From Corynebacterium pseudopelargi (GTDB lineage: Bacteria; Actinomycetota; Actinomycetes; Mycobacteriales; Mycobacteriaceae), in NCBI RefSeq assembly GCF_003814005.1, contig NZ_CP033898.1:1302001-1366000 (forward strand): a stretch of 64,000 nt of DNA. Direction: 5' to 3'. Positions 32,743 to 39,647 of the stretch are shown piece by piece. A model generated the notes under the pieces. That model was given only the letters and a program-made list of their open reading frames with translations, had not been told where the DNA came from and searched no databases. The stretch's first letter is position 1, and each line of letters begins with the position of its first letter. The translations under genes and the position numbers were made by a program.

Positions 32743-32771
32743 TATAAATGAACTTGTCAGACGTCCTACAA
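32743..32771 (+). promoter_or_regulatory. Promoter and GntR-type operator of the sialic-acid module
   Basis: A TATAAA -10 element (32743-32748) is followed at once by the imperfect palindrome TTGTCAGACGTCCTACAA (32754-32771): TTGT/ACAA outer arms and a GACGTC centre. The position over the transcription start fits a repressor site, and the shape fits FadR-subfamily GntR proteins such as sialic-acid NanR regulators. No such regulator is in the window, so control in trans is inferred. No good -35 element was found. Confidence 0.55.
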
Positions 32772-32797
32772 CGCTTCTTGGATGCGGAGGAACCCCG

Positions 32798-35098
32798 GTG
32801 AGCACACTTTCACCCTCATTGCATGTTGATGCACCACTACCCCAAGCAATTGATGCCTCAGCACTACAGTCCCTAGCCCATTGCAGCCACGGCACCCTTT
32901 TGCTGCACTTCAGCTCCACCATCGACGGCACCCTCCTGCGTATCGACGGCGCCCGTGGCCACATCGAATTAAGCATTGCAGGCGGCAGGATTGACGGCGC
33001 GGTGAGCGTCGACAAGCAAGAACGCCACATCGACGCCGAAGACACCCTCGGAATTGACGACGGCAAACCCCACACCCTAGGCCTAGTAGCCAGCGAGGAA
33101 GGCCTCGCGCTCTACCTCGACGGCTACGCGGCATTTCACACCACACCGATTGGCTGGTTTGAGCAGCTCGAGGTGCAACGCATCGCCACTGATCCAGCCG
33201 GCATCATGCAGGTCCACGCACTCGACATCTTTGATGAGGCCCTGCAGGCCCCGCAGATGGTGGCCAAAGCCCACGCCGCAGCGCCGTTTGTAGAATTCGC
33301 CGCCTCTCATCTTTCCGATCGCGACGCACAACGTTGCTCAGCCCTGCACTCCGGTGCCTGGCGCGCACGCTTTCGCTCCCGTGGCCTCGGCCAAGGCGGC
33401 ACCATCATCCAAGCAGGTGGCGAGCACGGCACCCTCACCCTCGAGCTGATTGATGGCGGCCTGCGCTATAGCGCAACAGATCACGCCACCACGCTGGCAA
33501 GCGTTGAGGCCCCCGGCCACTGGGACGATGGCGAATGGCACGATGTGGTCTTAGTTTCCGGCCGCGGCGCCTTGGTGCTGTATGTGGATGGCTACCAGGT
33601 GGCACTGGCCCCTGGCGCCTGCTTCTTTGCCGATGTCGCTCCCATCAAGGCCGTGACCGTGGGCATGAACCTCGAACAATCGCGGCTATTTGGCGAAGCC
33701 CAAACCGCGGCTATTTTCGACGCAGTGCTCAGCGACGCCCAGGTCAAGCGCCTGGCAGGAGTAAGCCCCATCGAAACCAGGGCATTATTTGATACTGGAT
33801 TTCATGGATCCAAAAGCTACCGCATTCCATCACTGCTCCGGCTCGCATCGGGCGTGATTCTTGCGGGAGCAGACCGCAGAGTCAGCATCGCCAACGACAG
33901 CCCAAACGATATCGACTTCGTGTTGCGCCGCAGCCTCGACGATGGCCAGACCTGGGAGCCGATGCAAACGCTGATCGAATACCCCGGCGAAGGCCGCAAG
34001 GGCGCCAGCGTGATCGACTCCGTACTGGTACAAGATCGTGAAAGCGGCAAGGTGATCGTGCTGATCGACCACTTCCCCGGCGGCATTGGTCAACCAAACT
34101 GCGAAGTAGGCACCGGTTTTGATGATCAACAGCGCATGCTGCTGCATAACCGCCAGGGTGAGCAATTCGCGCTCAGCACCGATGGCAGCGTGGTCACCCT
34201 CGATGGCCAGAGCACCGAATACCGCGTTGATGCCAAAGGCAACGTGTATCAAAGCGACCAACCCGCAGGCAATATCTACCTCGCCTATGGCGTCGACCCC
34301 AACGAGAGCCTGTTTAGCCACCGCAGCGCCTATGTACAGATGATCACCAGCGATGACGACGGCGAAACGTGGAGCGATCCGGTGGATATCACCGCAGACA
34401 TCAAAGCACCATGGATGCGCTTTATTGGTACCTCCCCTGGCAACGGCATCCAACTGCGCCACGGCGAACACGCAGGAAGGATCCTCGTGCCCGCCTACTA
34501 CAACCACGAAGAAGGCAAGACCTTTTCCTGCTGTGCGCTCTATAGCGATGATCTCGGATCCACCTGGCACCGAGGCGCCTCGCCCAATGATGGCCGAGAG
34601 CTTTTTGGCGCCACCCTCGACTCGCGCGCCCTGGAAGATGACCGCGGCTCCTTGCACGAATCCGTCCTGGTAGAAGATTCCCAAGGCCGTGTGCATGTGT
34701 ACATGCGCAATCAGCACCCCTCCGGGCGCGTCGGCCATGCCGTGTCCACCGATGGCGGTGCCACCTTCGGCGAAGTGGATTACCACCCCGAGCTCACAGA
34801 GATCTTCTCTCAGCCCAATGCCATTGAAGTTGAAGTAGCAGGCAAGCCCGCAGTGGTGTTTGCCAACGCCTCCCAAATGCTGCCCTTCCGCGGCTGCGGG
34901 GTGCTGCGCCTGAGCTTCGATGAAGGCCGCACTTGGCCACACAACCGCGTATTCCAGCCCCGGCACTACGTGTATCAGTGCATGACACAACTGGCCAATG
35001 GCGATATCGGGCTGTTGTGGGAACGCGAAACCCAAGGCCTGTTTTTCAGCCGAATCCCTCTTTCTTGGCTGCTGGCTTCTCGCCAAACCTCGAGCTAA
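32798..35098 (+). CDS. Exo-alpha-sialidase (GH33) without signal peptide
   Basis: A 766-residue sialidase. The GTG start has GGAGGA seven bases upstream. Residues 20-170 and 190-320 look like two LamG/concanavalin-like domains (each ends in a LALYLDGY or LVLYVDGY strand). The GH33 propeller follows: R342 in YRIP, five Asp boxes (first SLDDGQTW, 379-386; later SDDDGETW, SDDLGSTW, STDGGATF, SFDEGRTW), an Asp cluster at 366-371, E621 in HESV and Y726 in YVYQ. The region after HNRQGEQ resembles the NanA/NanB insertion of streptococci. It has no signal peptide, membrane anchor or LPXTG, so it is predicted cytoplasmic. It leads nanT and the DUF4862 gene. Confidence 0.88.
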   Translation: MSTLSPSLHVDAPLPQAIDASALQSLAHCSHGTLLLHFSSTIDGTLLRIDGARGHIELSIAGGRIDGAVSVDKQERHIDAEDTLGIDDGKPHTLGLVASEEGLALYLDGYAAFHTTPIGWFEQLEVQRIATDPAGIMQVHALDIFDEALQAPQMVAKAHAAAPFVEFAASHLSDRDAQRCSALHSGAWRARFRSRGLGQGGTIIQAGGEHGTLTLELIDGGLRYSATDHATTLASVEAPGHWDDGEWHDVVLVSGRGALVLYVDGYQVALAPGACFFADVAPIKAVTVGMNLEQSRLFGEAQTAAIFDAVLSDAQVKRLAGVSPIETRALFDTGFHGSKSYRIPSLLRLASGVILAGADRRVSIANDSPNDIDFVLRRSLDDGQTWEPMQTLIEYPGEGRKGASVIDSVLVQDRESGKVIVLIDHFPGGIGQPNCEVGTGFDDQQRMLLHNRQGEQFALSTDGSVVTLDGQSTEYRVDAKGNVYQSDQPAGNIYLAYGVDPNESLFSHRSAYVQMITSDDDGETWSDPVDITADIKAPWMRFIGTSPGNGIQLRHGEHAGRILVPAYYNHEEGKTFSCCALYSDDLGSTWHRGASPNDGRELFGATLDSRALEDDRGSLHESVLVEDSQGRVHVYMRNQHPSGRVGHAVSTDGGATFGEVDYHPELTEIFSQPNAIEVEVAGKPAVVFANASQMLPFRGCGVLRLSFDEGRTWPHNRVFQPRHYVYQCMTQLANGDIGLLWERETQGLFFSRIPLSWLLASRQTSS

Positions 35099-35156
35099 GC
35101 CTGCTTTTGGCTCAGCGCACTCTCTACCCCTTGAATAAGCAAAAGGAAACCATGCA

Positions 35157-36635
35157 ATGAATGCGAACCGGGCAGTACCTACTGCCACTGCCCAACTCCC
35201 CTGGTATAAGCAGCTCAGCAAAGAAAAATGGAAGGCGTTTTTTGCCGCCTGGCTCGGCGTCTTGCTCGATGGCTACGACTTCGTGCTCATCTCCTTTGCC
35301 CTTCCGGCGATCCGCGATGCCTTCGGCTTAAGCCTGGTGCAATCAGCAGCCCTCGTCTCTGCTGCCTTCATCTCCCGCTGGCTTGGCGGCCTCGTGTTGG
35401 GTGCGATGGCAGACAAGATGGGCCGCAAACCCGCCATGGTGGCCTCCATCATCCTCTTTGCAGCAGGATCTATCCTCATGGCATTTTCGCCGGGGTTCTG
35501 GCTGCTATTTATCTGCCGTCTCGTCATCGGCTTTGCCATGGCCGGCGAGTACTCCTCCTCGGCCACCTACATCATCGAATCCTGGCCGAAACACATGCGC
35601 AATAAAGCCTCGGGCTTTTTGCTCTCCGGTTTCGCCTTCGGCGTGATTCTGGCAGCGCAGGTAGATAAATACCTGGTGGCTTGGGTAGAAAGCTGGCACC
35701 CAGGCTGGGGTTGGCGTGCGCTCTTCCTCACCGGCATCGTGCCCATCGTGGTGGCCATCTATATGCGCCGTTCTCTGCCTGAGGCTGAGGATTGGGAGCA
35801 GCGCCAACAGTCTTCCGACACCAAACACGATATGCTCGCAGTCCTCTTCGGCGGTTCGCGTCGCGTACTCAACTTGGTACTCGTGGTGCTCGCCGCGCTG
35901 TTCTTGTTGTTGATCTTCTCGCGCCTGGTCGGTCCTGCGGTGATCGTGCCGCTAAGTGTGGTCTGCGCAGGCATCTTCATCTTCTTCGTCTACCAATTCG
36001 ATCCGAAGCGTTGGGTCATTGGTGTTGCGATCATGGTGACGATCTTCGCCTCCTTCATGTACACCTGGCCTATCCAAGGACTTCTGCCCACCTACCTCAA
36101 AGACGTAGGCATGGATCCCAACACCGTGGCCAACGTGATCACCTTCGCAGGCTTTGGTAACGCCTTGGGCTATATCATTGCCGGTTTTGCCGGCGACCGT
36201 TTTGGTATGCGCCGGTGGTATGCCATCTCCATCATCATCTCTCAAACCATCGTCTTCCCGCTGTTTATGCAAAACGGCGAGCTGGTAGCACTGGTTGCCA
36301 TCTTGCTCTTTGTCAATCAGATGTTCGGCCAGGGCATTTCGGGCCTTTTGCCCAAGTGGGTGGCCTCCTACTTCCCCATCGAACGACGCGCCGCAGGCCT
36401 GGGCTTTTGCTATAACGTTGGCGCCTTAGGCGGTGCCGTAGGCCCCGTACTCGGTGCCGCGCTGGCTGGCAGTTCCCTTGGTTTTGGTGGCGCCTTGGCC
36501 GTGCTTTCCGTGGGCTTCGCTGGCATCGTGGTGCTTTCCATTGGCCTGAACTTGCCTCGGATGCTGCAAAAGCTTGTCGACGCCTCCGCTGTTCGCCCCG
36601 AAGACGGCAATGACGAGATCATCGCGAAAGCATAG
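35157..36635 (+). CDS. NanT-type MFS sialic acid transporter
   Basis: A 492-residue major facilitator, similar to NanT of the sialate:H+ symporter family. The first helix holds LGVLLDGYDFVLISFALP, with the family's D-G-Y/F-D motif, and the loop 2-3 motif is MADKMGRKPAM. Two extra hydrophobic segments lie in the central region (LVLVVLAALFLLLIF and VIVPLSVVCAGIFIFFVYQF), the hallmark of 14-helix NanT proteins. It starts 58 bases after the sialidase and ends 13 bases before the DUF4862 gene, so the three are one operon. Substrate could be free sialic acid or a sialoside; the cytoplasmic sialidase argues for the latter. Confidence 0.82.
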   Translation: MNANRAVPTATAQLPWYKQLSKEKWKAFFAAWLGVLLDGYDFVLISFALPAIRDAFGLSLVQSAALVSAAFISRWLGGLVLGAMADKMGRKPAMVASIILFAAGSILMAFSPGFWLLFICRLVIGFAMAGEYSSSATYIIESWPKHMRNKASGFLLSGFAFGVILAAQVDKYLVAWVESWHPGWGWRALFLTGIVPIVVAIYMRRSLPEAEDWEQRQQSSDTKHDMLAVLFGGSRRVLNLVLVVLAALFLLLIFSRLVGPAVIVPLSVVCAGIFIFFVYQFDPKRWVIGVAIMVTIFASFMYTWPIQGLLPTYLKDVGMDPNTVANVITFAGFGNALGYIIAGFAGDRFGMRRWYAISIIISQTIVFPLFMQNGELVALVAILLFVNQMFGQGISGLLPKWVASYFPIERRAAGLGFCYNVGALGGAVGPVLGAALAGSSLGFGGALAVLSVGFAGIVVLSIGLNLPRMLQKLVDASAVRPEDGNDEIIAKA

Positions 36636-36648
36636 GAAGTGCATCAAC

Positions 36649-37530
36649 ATGTCGTACTTTGTTGTAGGAGCGTATGCCTCCCAACCACCCGAGCTTGATG
36701 CGCAGCGTCGCTACTATGACCTGCTGGCTGAAACCGGCTGGGTGGATGGACTCGAGGTGCCGTATCCAGGCCAGATGCACGAGAGTTTCCTCGGCTCCTT
36801 GTTAGAGGGGCGTTTCCAGCACAGCGTGCTCACCGCAATACCTGGCACCATGGTCAATGTGTGGGATGATCCCGATTTCGGTCTTGGATCTCCCACTGCC
36901 GCCGGCAGGGCCAAGGCCATGGAGTTTTGTGCCCAGCTTCGCAATTCCCTTGAGGCGATGCACCGCGAGCATGGCCATATCTTCGACTGGGTGGCGCTGC
37001 ATTCTGCGCCGAGCAATCGCTCTACTGCCGAGGATTTCCATGCATCACTTGAACAACTGCTCACCTGGGATTGGTGTGGTGCCAAGATCGTGATTGAGCA
37101 TTGCGATGAACGATCTGATGAGCATGAAGCAGAAAAGGGCTTCTTATTGCTCGAAGAGGAATTGGCCATTGCCCAAGAGCTCGGCCTACATTGCTCCTTG
37201 AACTGGGGGCGCTCCGCGGTAGGTTCCCGCGGTGATATCCGGCCTCAACAGCACGTTGCCCAGGCCAAAGCAAGCGGCGTGCTTGCCGGAGTGATCTTTT
37301 CTGGGGCCTCCCCGCAGGCCACGCAATACGGCCCGGCTTGGATTGATGGGCACTTACCTTTAAGCCTTGATGAGCCCGCCTCGTTGATGACGCCCGAACA
37401 GGTAGCGCAATCCTGCGCGCTTGCCGGCGATGTGGATTATTTAGGCGCTAAATGTTGTGTGCCCAAGGATGCCAGCCTTGAGCAACGCTTGGGCATGATC
37501 GAACGCATTTATCGGTGCTGCCAGGCCTAA
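36649..37530 (+). CDS. DUF4862-family protein
   Basis: A 293-residue soluble protein matching the DUF4862 pattern (VVGAYASQPPELDAQRRYYD at the start, then GLEVPYPGQMH). Acidic and histidine clusters such as IVIEHCDERSDEHEAEKG and the alternating hydrophobic/charged layout suggest a TIM-barrel of the xylose-isomerase type, which is inference. It is the last gene of the sialidase-nanT operon, so a role in handling a sialic-acid derivative or released glycan is likely. The ATG at 36649 lies 13 bases after nanT. No catalytic function is known to me. Confidence 0.75.
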   Translation: MSYFVVGAYASQPPELDAQRRYYDLLAETGWVDGLEVPYPGQMHESFLGSLLEGRFQHSVLTAIPGTMVNVWDDPDFGLGSPTAAGRAKAMEFCAQLRNSLEAMHREHGHIFDWVALHSAPSNRSTAEDFHASLEQLLTWDWCGAKIVIEHCDERSDEHEAEKGFLLLEEELAIAQELGLHCSLNWGRSAVGSRGDIRPQQHVAQAKASGVLAGVIFSGASPQATQYGPAWIDGHLPLSLDEPASLMTPEQVAQSCALAGDVDYLGAKCCVPKDASLEQRLGMIERIYRCCQA

Positions 37531-37539
37531 TACATGGCA

Positions 37540-37584
37540 AATGCCGTTGCCCCTTTGATCGGGGCAACGGCATTATTTTTTTTG
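37540..37584 (+). terminator. Terminator of the sialic-acid module
   Basis: AATGCCGTTGCCCC (37540-37553) pairs perfectly with GGGGCAACGGCATT (37561-37574), followed by ATTTTTTTTT. It lies ten bases after the DUF4862 stop and just before the convergent ptsG end. Confidence 0.95.
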
Positions 37585-37592
37585 CTGTGCGC

Positions 37593-39647
37593 TTAGGCGT
37601 CCTTAGCGCGGGTGGTGATGACCACGCTGTTTGCATCGGCGTGGTCGACGGCAGTGCCTTCCACGTCAGCGAACTTCGGGGTGTTGGTCACCAGCACCGG
37701 GGTGATCAGGTTATAGCCCTGAGACTCAATGAAGTCAGGATCAAAGCTGATGAGCTTCTCGCCAGCCTTGACGTGCTGCTTCTTGTCTACATGGACGGTG
37801 TAGCCCTCACCATTGAGCTGGACGGTATCGATACCGACGTGCACCAGCAGGTCCACACCGGAATCCAGGCGCAGGCCAACTGCGTGACCGGACTTTTGCA
37901 CGGTGAGCACGGTGGCGTCGGCAGGGGCTACAACCTCAGTACCCGAGGGCACGATGGCGACACCCTTGCCCAGCTTGCCGCCGGCGAAGATCGGATCAGG
38001 AACCTCAGACAGCGGCACTGCCTTGCCCTCGAGCGGAGCAGTGATTTGGGTCAGCGCACCGGGCTCCAGCGCGGTCTTTACAGGCTTGGTGGCGGTAGCA
38101 ACCCCACCAGCGGCTGCAGCACCAGCGGCAGCGGGAGCAGCAGCGGTGGTGGCGTCTTCCTGAGCAGACTCGGATTCAACAGCAGCGGATTCTGCGGCGA
38201 GGCGCTCGAGCACCTCGGCCTTTTCTTCCTTGGTGCGGTAGTCCATCACGATGACCAAAGCCATGGAGGTGAAGAATGCGACGGCGATACCGATGAGGTA
38301 GCCACCCATGGGCTCCATCGCGGGGAAGGTGAGCAAGGAGGTAAAGACGAAGGCCTTTGCCTTGACGTCGAAGAGGCCGATGATGAAACCGCCGATGGCA
38401 CAGCCGGGAAGCAGTGCTAGGTAGGAACGGCGGAAGCGCAGCAGCACACCGTAGAGCGAAGGCTCAGAGATACCGCCGAGCAGGCCGGCCATCATACCGC
38501 CCATGGAAACCTGACGCATGGTGGCGTTGCGCTCCTTGATGGAGAGGATGAGCACGCCGGTGACCACACCGAAGCAGGCGAAGTTCCATGCACCCATGGG
38601 GCCTTGGATGAAGTCGTAGCCCAGGGTTGCGATGTTTTGGATCATGATCACGTTCAGCGGCCAGTGCAGACCCAGCGGCACCAGGAATGGGTACAGCAGC
38701 GGCACCACGATGGCGAGGATCAGCGGGCTGAAGTTGTTAATGGCGGAGAGCATGTTAGAGATGCCAACGCCGGTGTAGATACCGAAGGGGCCGAGCAGGA
38801 AGGCCGTCAGCGGGATCATGATCAGCAGCGAGAAGAATGGCACGAAGACCATGTGCACGGACTGAGGGATGATCTTCTTGAACAGCTTCTCAACCCAGTA
38901 CAGGCCGATCGCGGCGAGCAGCGGTGGGAACACCTGTCCGCCGTAGTCATTGAGCACCATGGGCAGGCCGAAGACGGTGACCTTGTACACGTCGGCACCA
39001 TTGGCGGCCTGGGTAACAACCGTTTCTGGCAGCTCCTTCATGGCGATGAACTGCGGGGTCATCAATGCGGCAGGGATTGCGGCACCGACCCACTCATTGG
39101 CGCCGAGCTTACGGGCAGCGGTGGCACCGACCATGATGGGCAGGAAGTAGAACACGGAGTTCCACATTGCGTGCATGAACTGGTACGTCGGAGGCTGCTG
39201 TTCTGCACGGAAGTCTTGCCAACCGAAGGTATCGGCCAGCACGAGCATGGTGATGATCAGCGATGCGCCGAGCAGCGCCCAAAGGATCGGGCGGAAGGTA
39301 TCAGAGAGCACCTCGAAGCCGTAGTCGATCCACGAGTACTTGCCGCGAGCTCCGCCGTATTCCTTCTTGCCGCTCGCGGCCTTCTTGGTTTCACCACCGG
39401 TGAGCTTTTGCAGTTCTTGGTAGTAGTTCGCAACAGCACCACCCATAACAACCTGCAGGCCGGTGGAGCCTTGGGGGACGACGCCGAGCACGTCGGGGTT
39501 GTTGTCGAGGGCGGTTTGGTCAGCCTTGGACTGGTCTGCGAGCTGGAAACGAAGTCGTGTTGCACAGTGCGTGAGCGACACGATGTTCTCAGCGCCACCG
39601 ACCTTGTCCAGGATGAACTCTGAAGTCTGCTTCACAGAAGACGCCAT
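37593..39647 (-). CDS. ptsG: Glucose-type PTS transporter, EIIBCA
   Basis: A 684-residue phosphotransferase permease taking up and phosphorylating glucose. The order is IIB (residues 1-90, phosphocysteine in LTHCATRLRFQL), IIC (about 105-470, with the sugar-site block GGISEPSLYGVLLRF) and IIA (about 535-680, phosphohistidine in LLVHVGIDTVQL). An Ala/Gly-rich linker at 490-530 joins IIC and IIA. The sequence closely follows corynebacterial PtsG, rather than PtsS (sucrose) or BglF. It is transcribed toward the sialic-acid module. A possible GlxR site lies 42 bases upstream. Confidence 0.93.
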   Translation of the reverse strand: MASSVKQTSEFILDKVGGAENIVSLTHCATRLRFQLADQSKADQTALDNNPDVLGVVPQGSTGLQVVMGGAVANYYQELQKLTGGETKKAASGKKEYGGARGKYSWIDYGFEVLSDTFRPILWALLGASLIITMLVLADTFGWQDFRAEQQPPTYQFMHAMWNSVFYFLPIMVGATAARKLGANEWVGAAIPAALMTPQFIAMKELPETVVTQAANGADVYKVTVFGLPMVLNDYGGQVFPPLLAAIGLYWVEKLFKKIIPQSVHMVFVPFFSLLIMIPLTAFLLGPFGIYTGVGISNMLSAINNFSPLILAIVVPLLYPFLVPLGLHWPLNVIMIQNIATLGYDFIQGPMGAWNFACFGVVTGVLILSIKERNATMRQVSMGGMMAGLLGGISEPSLYGVLLRFRRSYLALLPGCAIGGFIIGLFDVKAKAFVFTSLLTFPAMEPMGGYLIGIAVAFFTSMALVIVMDYRTKEEKAEVLERLAAESAAVESESAQEDATTAAAPAAAGAAAAGGVATATKPVKTALEPGALTQITAPLEGKAVPLSEVPDPIFAGGKLGKGVAIVPSGTEVVAPADATVLTVQKSGHAVGLRLDSGVDLLVHVGIDTVQLNGEGYTVHVDKKQHVKAGEKLISFDPDFIESQGYNLITPVLVTNTPKFADVEGTAVDHADANSVVITTRAKDA

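Follow-up and report, generated by a model that had tools for sequence, protein, structure and literature searches.

An apparent operon in Corynebacterium pseudopelargi joins a signal-less sialidase, a NanT-type transporter and a DUF4862 protein that may serve sialic acid catabolism

Three neighboring genes of Corynebacterium pseudopelargi, encoding a GH33 sialidase, a NanT-family symporter and a DUF4862 protein, look like a single operon. With a confidence that falls a little short of even, we read it as a satellite of the sialic acid pathway, probably controlled by NanR. NanT would use H+ symport to take up a sialic acid compound, and a cytoplasmic sialidase would hydrolyze the entering sialosides to alpha-Neu5Ac. 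Judging from its context, DUF4862 would accelerate the anomerization (ring opening) of cyclic Neu5Ac to give the open form for NanA. Catabolism would be completed by enzymes whose genes lie 640 kb distant: the lyase, a ROK kinase, NanE and NagA.

The three co-directional open reading frames lie on the forward strand of the window, the 64,000-nt stretch of DNA analyzed here, with intergenic gaps of 58 and 13 bp. They encode the 766-aa sialidase (32798..35098), the 492-aa NanT-family MFS sialate:H+ symporter (35157..36635) and the 293-aa DUF4862 protein (36649..37530), a candidate cytoplasmic ulosonic-acid anomerase on the basis of PF16154 membership, context and co-occurrence. An intrinsic terminator on the same strand (37540..37574; 14 pairs, 9 of them G-C, then a T run) closes the operon. 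ORFs, hairpin and family scores agree with the gene set listed in an earlier note on this DNA (sialidase, NanT-like transporter, DUF4862 and one strong terminator); the start that it gave, 32754, falls outside the sialidase reading frame. The enzyme likely starts at GTG 32798, preceded by GGAGGA, and the probable NanR operator TTGTCAGACGTCCTACAA occupies 32754..32771 (+), 26 bp upstream of that start. An Rfam scan of the operon returned zero matches.

The sialidase lacks a recognizable signal peptide. Its open frame reaches upstream only to TTG 32708, and the best 12-residue Kyte-Doolittle means at the N-terminus (0.87 from GTG 32798, 1.09 from TTG 32708) are hydrophobic in neither version, so we rejected an upstream start that adds a signal. 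The first 45 residues of the 766-aa form contain no twin arginine. These calls are heuristics and not SignalP output, with the two exported controls scoring 2.33 and, for a lipoprotein, only 1.61; the hydropathy cut of 2.0 is weak by itself, Tat-signal paralogs reaching just 1.23 and 1.68, and was supplemented by counts of twin arginines and of the longest uncharged run. Among the 120 family members listed, 119 score below this cut (the remaining one 2.01), which would miss Tat signals, and only one has an adjacent arginine pair within its first 40 residues. The absence of a signal peptide that the earlier note described is thus borne out, upstream start included, by hydropathy and twin-arginine heuristics; its statement that sialidases of this type are usually secreted is at odds with these 120 closest relatives, which look unsecreted. 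Furthermore, six related loci carry, next to the signal-less sialidase, a paralog bearing a signal of the Sec or Tat kind, so export appears to be available and unused for this copy. We infer that the sialidase is cytoplasmic.

Numbering from GTG 32798 recovers the features previously described for the 766-aa protein, namely R342, E621, Y726, five Asp boxes (at 379, 518, 583, 650 and 706) and two LamG-like domains, the latter as two Laminin_G_2 stretches in a Pfam scan. In our alignment, R342, D367, E621, R637, R698 and Y726 are present in the window sialidase and in 120/120 listed family members. We assign the catalytic roles (Arg triad, Asp acid/base, Glu, Tyr nucleophile) by NanI numbering, and in our reading R698 is the third arginine of the triad. 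The protein scores 290 and 235 bits with hydrolytic NanI/NanA enzymes, the 290 being with the C. perfringens sialidase, vs 125 with an anhydrosialidase, and it looks like a cytoplasmic hydrolase of the NanI/NanA type. The position two residues before the catalytic glutamate, probably that of the trans-sialidase threonine, is Leu619 here; in the alignment of the 120 family members, it is Leu in 119 and Thr in one. RgNanH, an intramolecular trans-sialidase, has Thr557 under the glycerol group (PMC4510645). The leucine, the NanI/NanA-like scores and a transporter below the NF008963 cutoff led us to reject the intramolecular trans-sialidase or 2,7-anhydro route, for which the three operon genes also include no oxidoreductase.

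The transporter passes the NCBIfam NanT model NF003024 (716 bits vs a cutoff of 604) and shares 50% identity with E. coli NanT across 480 aa, in keeping with its earlier description as NanT-like. With NF008963, which we take to be the model for YjhB/NanX, the 2,7-anhydro-Neu5Ac transporter, it scores 315 bits, below the cutoff of 637. The helices could not be counted cleanly in our hydropathy scan, which did not confirm the 14 described before. Among 80 DUF4862 loci, all 15 with a NanT at least 65% identical to the window protein have a signal-less sialidase within 10 kb. The compound known to be carried by E. coli NanT is free Neu5Ac; were this carrier limited to the same compound, a cytoplasmic sialidase would have no substrate, and what NanT carries here is the second point that we infer. 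Taken as a whole, the earlier interpretation keeps its unsecreted sialidase coupled to a NanT-like importer, now with those 15 loci behind it, and its DUF4862 in the sialic acid pathway; it loses the 2,7-anhydro product, against which enzyme scores, leucine and transporter model all speak.

Family searches run genome-wide place no DHDPS/NanA-family or NanE match within the 64,000-nt window, as the earlier note had said of nanA and nanE, and they locate the genes elsewhere that it had considered necessary. A nan cluster with a GntR regulator (C1:1980076-1990742; nagA-nanE-ROK-GntR / SBP5-permease-permease/ATPase-ATPase-nanA-like) lies 640 kb from the operon in the same genome. For its nanA-like gene, the NCBIfam dapA models give higher scores than the NanA models, none of these scores reaching its cutoff. 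The two loci share a palindrome: TTGTCAGACGTCCTACAA differs at two positions from TTGTCAGACGTCTGACAA, and ACTTGTCAGACGTC lies in the divergent promoter region of the nan cluster (around 4161 in L004). It is probably a NanR site. Allowing up to 5 mismatches and up to 250 bp upstream, we found it ahead of 23/49 nan-linked DUF4862 copies (0.34 expected), all 23 in Bifidobacteriaceae, and ahead of 5/31 unlinked copies (0.12 expected).

Several lines of evidence suggest that, in many bacteria, DUF4862 is part of the sialic acid pathway. The window protein scores 300 bits with PF16154 (gathering cutoff 25), and tblastn of neighboring genes placed GH33, NanT, NanA or NanE within 10 kb in 49 of 80 DUF4862 loci. 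Strong NanE matches occur in 20/20 Corynebacterium genomes with DUF4862 vs 59/222 without (242 genomes), and in 15/17 vs 19/318 genomes of a class-wide draw, comparisons whose p values take no account of shared ancestry. Strong NanE is likewise found in 48 of 50 named DUF4862-positive genomes, 31 of which were chosen for having no nan marker nearby. Gene order, this co-occurrence and the palindrome agree with the placement of DUF4862 in sialic acid processing proposed before. Exceptions are Scardovia wiggsiae, with DUF4862 and no NanE, and Azospirillum, where DUF4862 lies in no nan context. The association extends to a second phylum: in Pseudoalteromonas, DUF4862 adjoins nanR in a cluster with a symporter, nanE, ROK, nagB, nagA, a DHDPS gene and a NanM-family protein, and neither annotation nor tblastn finds YhcH there. 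E. coli BEN2908 has its DUF4862 gene in the operon for 2,3-diketo-L-gulonate, next to yiaL, a DUF386 gene. That route is also a 2-keto acid pathway, though free of N-acetyl groups. DUF4862 is present in 1050/5426 complete E. coli genomes, in Actinomyces, Gardnerella, Bifidobacterium and Cutibacterium, and on plasmids in three records; E. coli DNA searches with the Pseudoalteromonas or Azospirillum protein as query gave no match. Sequence searches at E up to 1 or 10 returned no relative with a solved structure, and we found no paper on DUF4862 in the open-licence library searched.

NanA prefers open-chain Neu5Ac, a form that cytoplasmic YhcH supplies (PMC8141875). YhcH (DUF386) matches at E up to 0.001 occur in only 2/50 DUF4862-positive genomes, and the one over cutoff is weak (29 bits) and comes from a genome that lacks strong NanE, one of two such genomes among the 50. 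It occurs in 1/242 Corynebacterium genomes, one with 7% contamination, and profile searches found no DUF386 in the window's genome. Our leading guess, so far unproven, is that DUF4862 works in the cytoplasm as an anomerase, or "openase", on 2-keto sugar acids; scanned DUF4862 proteins match no DUF386 model. The broader proposal is doubtful: that it forms a further, unrelated Neu5Ac anomerase family beside NanM and YhcH, an openase that does the work of YhcH when actinobacteria and at least one marine gammaproteobacterium break down sialic acid. Here it would be paired with a NanT clade importing intact small sialosides for an internal sialidase. The 59 strongly NanE-positive Corynebacterium genomes without DUF4862 include YhcH only in the contaminated one, so an anomerase is not obligatory. 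In the E. coli yia operon, DUF386 and DUF4862 are neighbors, so there neither simply takes the place of the other.

DUF4862 could instead be a xylose-isomerase-like isomerase or epimerase that acts on a post-lyase sugar such as ManNAc and not on Neu5Ac itself, which we consider unlikely but worth taking seriously. Similarity to Pfam AP_endonuc_2 appears in 21/52 members at E up to 1 (best 1.1e-6), and Glu, His, Asp, Asn and Lys residues invariant across members fit a metal enzyme. However, the AP_endonuc_2 scores, where shown, reach at most 27.7 bits against the Pfam cutoff of 31.1, and hhalign against one true member, SgbU, entered as a single sequence, found no match. The NanE of 48/50 genomes would already cover epimerization, and the E. 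coli protein serves a pathway without ManNAc. A role of DUF4862 as lactonase, or as another kind of hydrolase acting on 2-keto sugar acids in lactone or otherwise modified form (sialic acid lactones, or dehydroascorbate-type lactones in the yia operon), is improbable too. Its two pathways, those of sialic acid and 2,3-diketo-L-gulonate, both have lactone forms, but the members scanned resemble no Pfam lactonase family, and we know of no precedent for a lactonase step in nan clusters.

Two further alternatives concern the sialidase. It might work outside, after lysis or by a non-classical route, with NanT importing free Neu5Ac. Neither PF13088 nor a protein search found a second GH33 in the genome, leaving nothing else to free sialic acid outside, and the identity with E. 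coli NanT would suit such a carrier; the unsecreted look of the family and the six loci with signal-bearing paralogs argue against this reading and make it a poor prospect. Least probable of all is that a cytoplasmic enzyme hydrates imported Neu5Ac2en instead of cutting sialosides. Some GH33 enzymes hydrate Neu5Ac2en and NanT-family carriers transport sialates of monosaccharide size, but two LamG-like domains suggest glycan binding.

Hydrolysis inside the cell followed by DUF4862 ring opening, the reading we prefer, can be set beside known systems. C. glutamicum, which we take to have a nan cluster, served as a control genome; it has a NanE match like C. pseudopelargi and, unlike it, no match to DUF4862, nor one to DUF386. 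The E. coli nanATEK-yhcH operon likewise combines a NanT importer with the NanA/NanK/NanE route and has a small extra cytoplasmic protein, the anomerase YhcH/NanQ (PMC8141875). That protein is of the DUF386 and not the DUF4862 Pfam family, the E. coli genes form one operon and not two loci 640 kb apart, and the E. coli K-12 nan stretch shown has no sialidase, unlike the C. pseudopelargi operon. B. infantis has intracellular sialidases (PMC10298468) and NanR controls the nan genes of B. breve (PMC4746261). Many Bifidobacterium loci have the order DUF4862-ROK-NanE, with an SBP5 ABC importer in place of NanT. In the yiaK-S operon of E. coli, with a counterpart in Klebsiella, the substrate is 2,3-diketo-L-gulonate and a DUF4862 protein lies beside transporter genes with the DUF386 protein YiaL; Klebsiella YiaX1 would, from its protein name, belong to this family.

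Gene order, co-occurrence and a promoter palindrome tie DUF4862, a domain of unknown function that occurs in E. coli and in genera often present in humans, to the catabolism of sialic acid and related 2-keto sugar acids. How bacteria that lack YhcH provide open sugar to NanA becomes directly testable. The operon also makes a good case for the release of sialic acid inside the cell, its products probably importing host sialic acid compounds and then cutting them intracellularly.

The operon occupies the forward strand of a 2.35-Mb genome in two contigs (the window being C1:1302001-1366000 of contig 1). It runs from a GH33 sialidase (32798-35098, GTG start, ribosome binding site GGAGGA) through the open frame of NanT (35157-36635) and DUF4862 (36649-37530, ATG start) to a terminator 3' of DUF4862 (37540-37574). 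Minus-strand open frames 5' of the operon are presumably uvrB and coaE. A 684-aa minus-strand frame (37593-39647), PTS sugar transporter-like by eye, converges on the terminator. The closest named relative we met is C. pelargi (DUF4862 97%, sialidase 94% and NanT 99% identical at L007, its DUF4862 locus); both C. pelargi and C. pseudopelargi are species from birds.

Comparing DUF4862 neighbourhoods, as the earlier note had proposed for Actinobacteria, we found a nan marker (GH33, NanT, NanA or NanE) in the flanks of 49 of 80 loci and none in 31; the 80 were retained from 124 relatives in named genomes, and some flanks are shorter than 10 kb on one side. NanE is present in 39 of these 80 flanks, NanA in 37, ROK in 36, GH33 in 23 and NanT in 18, and YhcH and kelch proteins in 0/80 each. 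Across 242 Corynebacterium genomes, DUF4862 occurs in 20 and NanE at E<1e-20 in 79 (115 at the looser 1e-3). All 20 DUF4862 genomes have NanE at the stricter cutoff (hypergeometric p 3e-11, a value that, like the other co-occurrence p values, ignores relatedness). A class-wide draw of 335 genomes gave NanE in 15 of 17 with DUF4862 vs 19 of 318 others. Genome searches for 50 of the 80 loci, namely the 31 that lack a nan marker in their flanks and 19 others, gave strong NanE in 48; the exceptions are Scardovia wiggsiae, with none, and one Actinomycetaceae MAG, with a weak match. DUF4862 is almost certainly a member of the sialic acid pathway. Within the open-licence texts searched this link is new in print: none of those texts contains the word 'DUF4862', and the main text of a survey of actinobacterial sialic acid catabolism (PMC8754123) has neither 'DUF...' words nor 'mutarotase'.

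Sialidases like that of the window (E<1e-100) were found in 15 Corynebacterium genomes, 14 of them with DUF4862; G232 is the sole genome of the 15 that lacks it. Three genomes without DUF4862 (G013, G217 and G131) have sialidases just short of this line (E 5e-97 to 5e-83). Of the 20 genomes with DUF4862, 6 show no more than weak sialidase matches, G197 showing none. One Corynebacterium DUF4862 (G148:C6:82803-83650) lies in two pieces and contains an in-frame TAA; the NanE frame of that genome is stop-free.

The earlier note had seen no nanA or nanE in the window and placed catabolism elsewhere, which the genome search bore out: the single NanE match and both DHDPS genes lie outside the window, and a nan cluster was located in a 20-kb stretch there. 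One strand carries nagA and nanE together with genes for a ROK kinase and a regulator of the GntR/FCD type. On the opposite strand lie the genes of an SBP5 ABC importer (SBP5 protein, permease, permease-ATPase fusion, ATPase) and a nanA-like gene. The NCBIfam cutoff is passed by NanE; no gene of the cluster reaches the cutoffs of the NanA, NanK, NanR and NagA models, and the top model for the nanA-like gene is dapA (157 bits vs a cutoff of 206). Because these cutoffs were missed, the names nanA, nanK, nanR and nagA are based on gene context and Pfam matches; the lyase is also 52-60% identical to counterparts in nan clusters elsewhere. SBP5 importers are the common Neu5Ac transporters in actinobacterial nan clusters (PMC8754123).

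The two regions share a palindrome. The 64 kb of the window contain a single ACTTGTCAGACGTC, at 32752, and the divergent promoter region of the distant cluster has it too, with all 14 bases; when up to 2 mismatches are allowed, it is matched in 26 of 100 shuffles, so a lone site says little. The longer palindrome TTGTCAGACGTCTGACAA has 2 mismatches at 32754-32771 and 3 at position 4161 of L004, the stretch with the distant cluster, and its consensus was fixed after sight of these two sites, which are not independent tests. With up to 5 mismatches it lies within 250 bp 5' of DUF4862 in 23 of the 49 loci with a nan marker vs 0.34 expected, and in 5 of the 31 others vs 0.12 expected, the control rate (0.0069 per stretch) coming from stretches drawn at random within these loci, coding DNA included. 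The 23 are Bifidobacteriaceae only, many with identical sites; the five are from Scardovia (1), Corynebacterium (2) and Actinomyces (2). At the Scardovia wiggsiae locus (L016) the palindrome stands 196 bp 5' of DUF4862 with 5 mismatches and a GntR gene adjoins, in a genome without NanE. We infer that TTGTCAGACGTCTGACAA is a putative NanR site; in B. breve, nan genes are under NanR, a GntR-type repressor (PMC4746261).

The catalytic residues R342, E621 and Y726 and five Asp boxes described previously hold, their numbering fitting exactly with the GTG start at 32798. The top solved relatives of the sialidase are exo-sialidases of C. perfringens (290 bits) and sialidase A (NanA, 235 bits); an anhydrosialidase scores 125 bits. 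In an alignment of the best 120 listed of 340 family members, the window protein among them, R342, D367, E621, R637, R698 and Y726 are kept in all 120. The residue at Glu-2, which we assume to be the position of Thr557 of RgNanH, is Leu in 119 and Thr in one. Thr557 is the diagnostic residue of RgNanH (PMC4510645). By both PF13088 and protein search, the genome has one GH33 copy.

That this enzyme lacks a signal peptide, as the earlier note held, is upheld by N-terminal counts over the 120 listed sialidases and by paralogs in six loci. The peak 12-residue hydropathy mean of the first 45 residues has a median of 1.22 and is at least 2.0 in one of 120 (2.01), with 0.87 for the window protein; alone this test is weak, as two exported controls of the same genome score 2.33 and (a lipoprotein) 1.61, and two Tat-signal paralogs 1.23 and 1.68. 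An adjacent arginine pair in the first 40 residues occurs in 1 of 120. For the longest uncharged run among the first 45 residues, the median is 8 and the maximum 16 (at least 12 in 21 of 120), with runs of 19-20 in four Sec-signal comparison paralogs and 11 and 13 in two Tat ones. Both counts agree with the hydropathy result. The comparison within loci is stronger evidence: in six loci with tandem sialidases beside NanT, a copy with a signal peptide adjoins one without. The signals are Sec-like in L021, L038, L042 and L059 and twin-arginine in L080 and L155, all judged by eye; in L038, L042 and L080 the reading took an internal start of the longest frame. The sialidase is thus predicted, with good confidence, to be cytoplasmic, like the known intracellular sialidases of B. 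longum subsp. infantis (PMC10298468). Of the 80 loci, 15 have a NanT with 65% or more identity to that of the window, and each of these carries a signal-less sialidase of the two-LamG type within 10 kb; the three Cutibacterium loci with NanT 44-45% identical have no sialidase match within 10 kb. The importer may be adapted to the substrate of the cytoplasmic sialidase.

Outside Actinobacteria, DUF4862 on a plasmid of Pseudoalteromonas HL-AS2 adjoins nanR; next come a sodium:solute symporter, nanE, ROK and nagB, and the neighbourhood also has nagA, a DHDPS gene and a protein of the NanM family (PF24996, 148 bits). Neither annotation nor tblastn showed YhcH at the locus. The Azospirillum gene (L138:9980-10939) adjoins an MFS transporter and sugar-acid dehydrogenases, with no nan cluster context. 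Our E. coli control match is explained by the DUF4862 gene in 1050 of 5426 E. coli genomes, the type strain among them. In E. coli BEN2908 (L169:3998-4918) the order is yiaK-yiaL-DUF4862-yiaMNO-lyxK; the yia operon of K-12 has no DUF4862, and the gene lay under 7 of the 30 matches listed in a yia-operon search. A Paraglaciecola member carries the name YiaX1, and by that name Klebsiella yiaX1, labelled 'chemotaxis-like' in an ascorbate operon (PMC4324149), would belong to the family. An activity common to sialic acid and 2,3-diketo-L-gulonate would point to the 2-keto acid part, and not the N- or O-acetyl groups, as the site of DUF4862 chemistry. Residues invariant in 18 sequences across lineages, among them E36, T62, E150-D153, K163, N185-W186, R188-S189, S218-G219, W231, D233, H235 and K268, would suit a metal-assisted enzyme.

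From its context, DUF4862 is a candidate anomerase, a role we consider possible but rather less than evenly probable. In E. coli, open-chain Neu5Ac reaches NanA through the ring-opener YhcH (DUF386 family), present in 18 of 21 Neu5Ac-using bacteria on the authors' list (PMC8141875). In our searches DUF386 was found in 1 of 242 Corynebacterium genomes, that one 7% contaminated. At E<=0.001 it matched 2 of the 50 searched DUF4862 genomes: one match is above cutoff, at 29 bits, and comes from a genome among the two that lack strong NanE; the other is below cutoff, at 20 bits, and comes from the NanE-bearing Gleimia coleocanis. Against an anomerase, 59 Corynebacterium genomes with strong NanE lack DUF4862 and YhcH occurs in 1 of these 59, and in BEN2908 the genes for YiaL and DUF4862 are adjacent. 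A sialidase active inside the cell would release alpha-Neu5Ac, which would make ring opening more useful.
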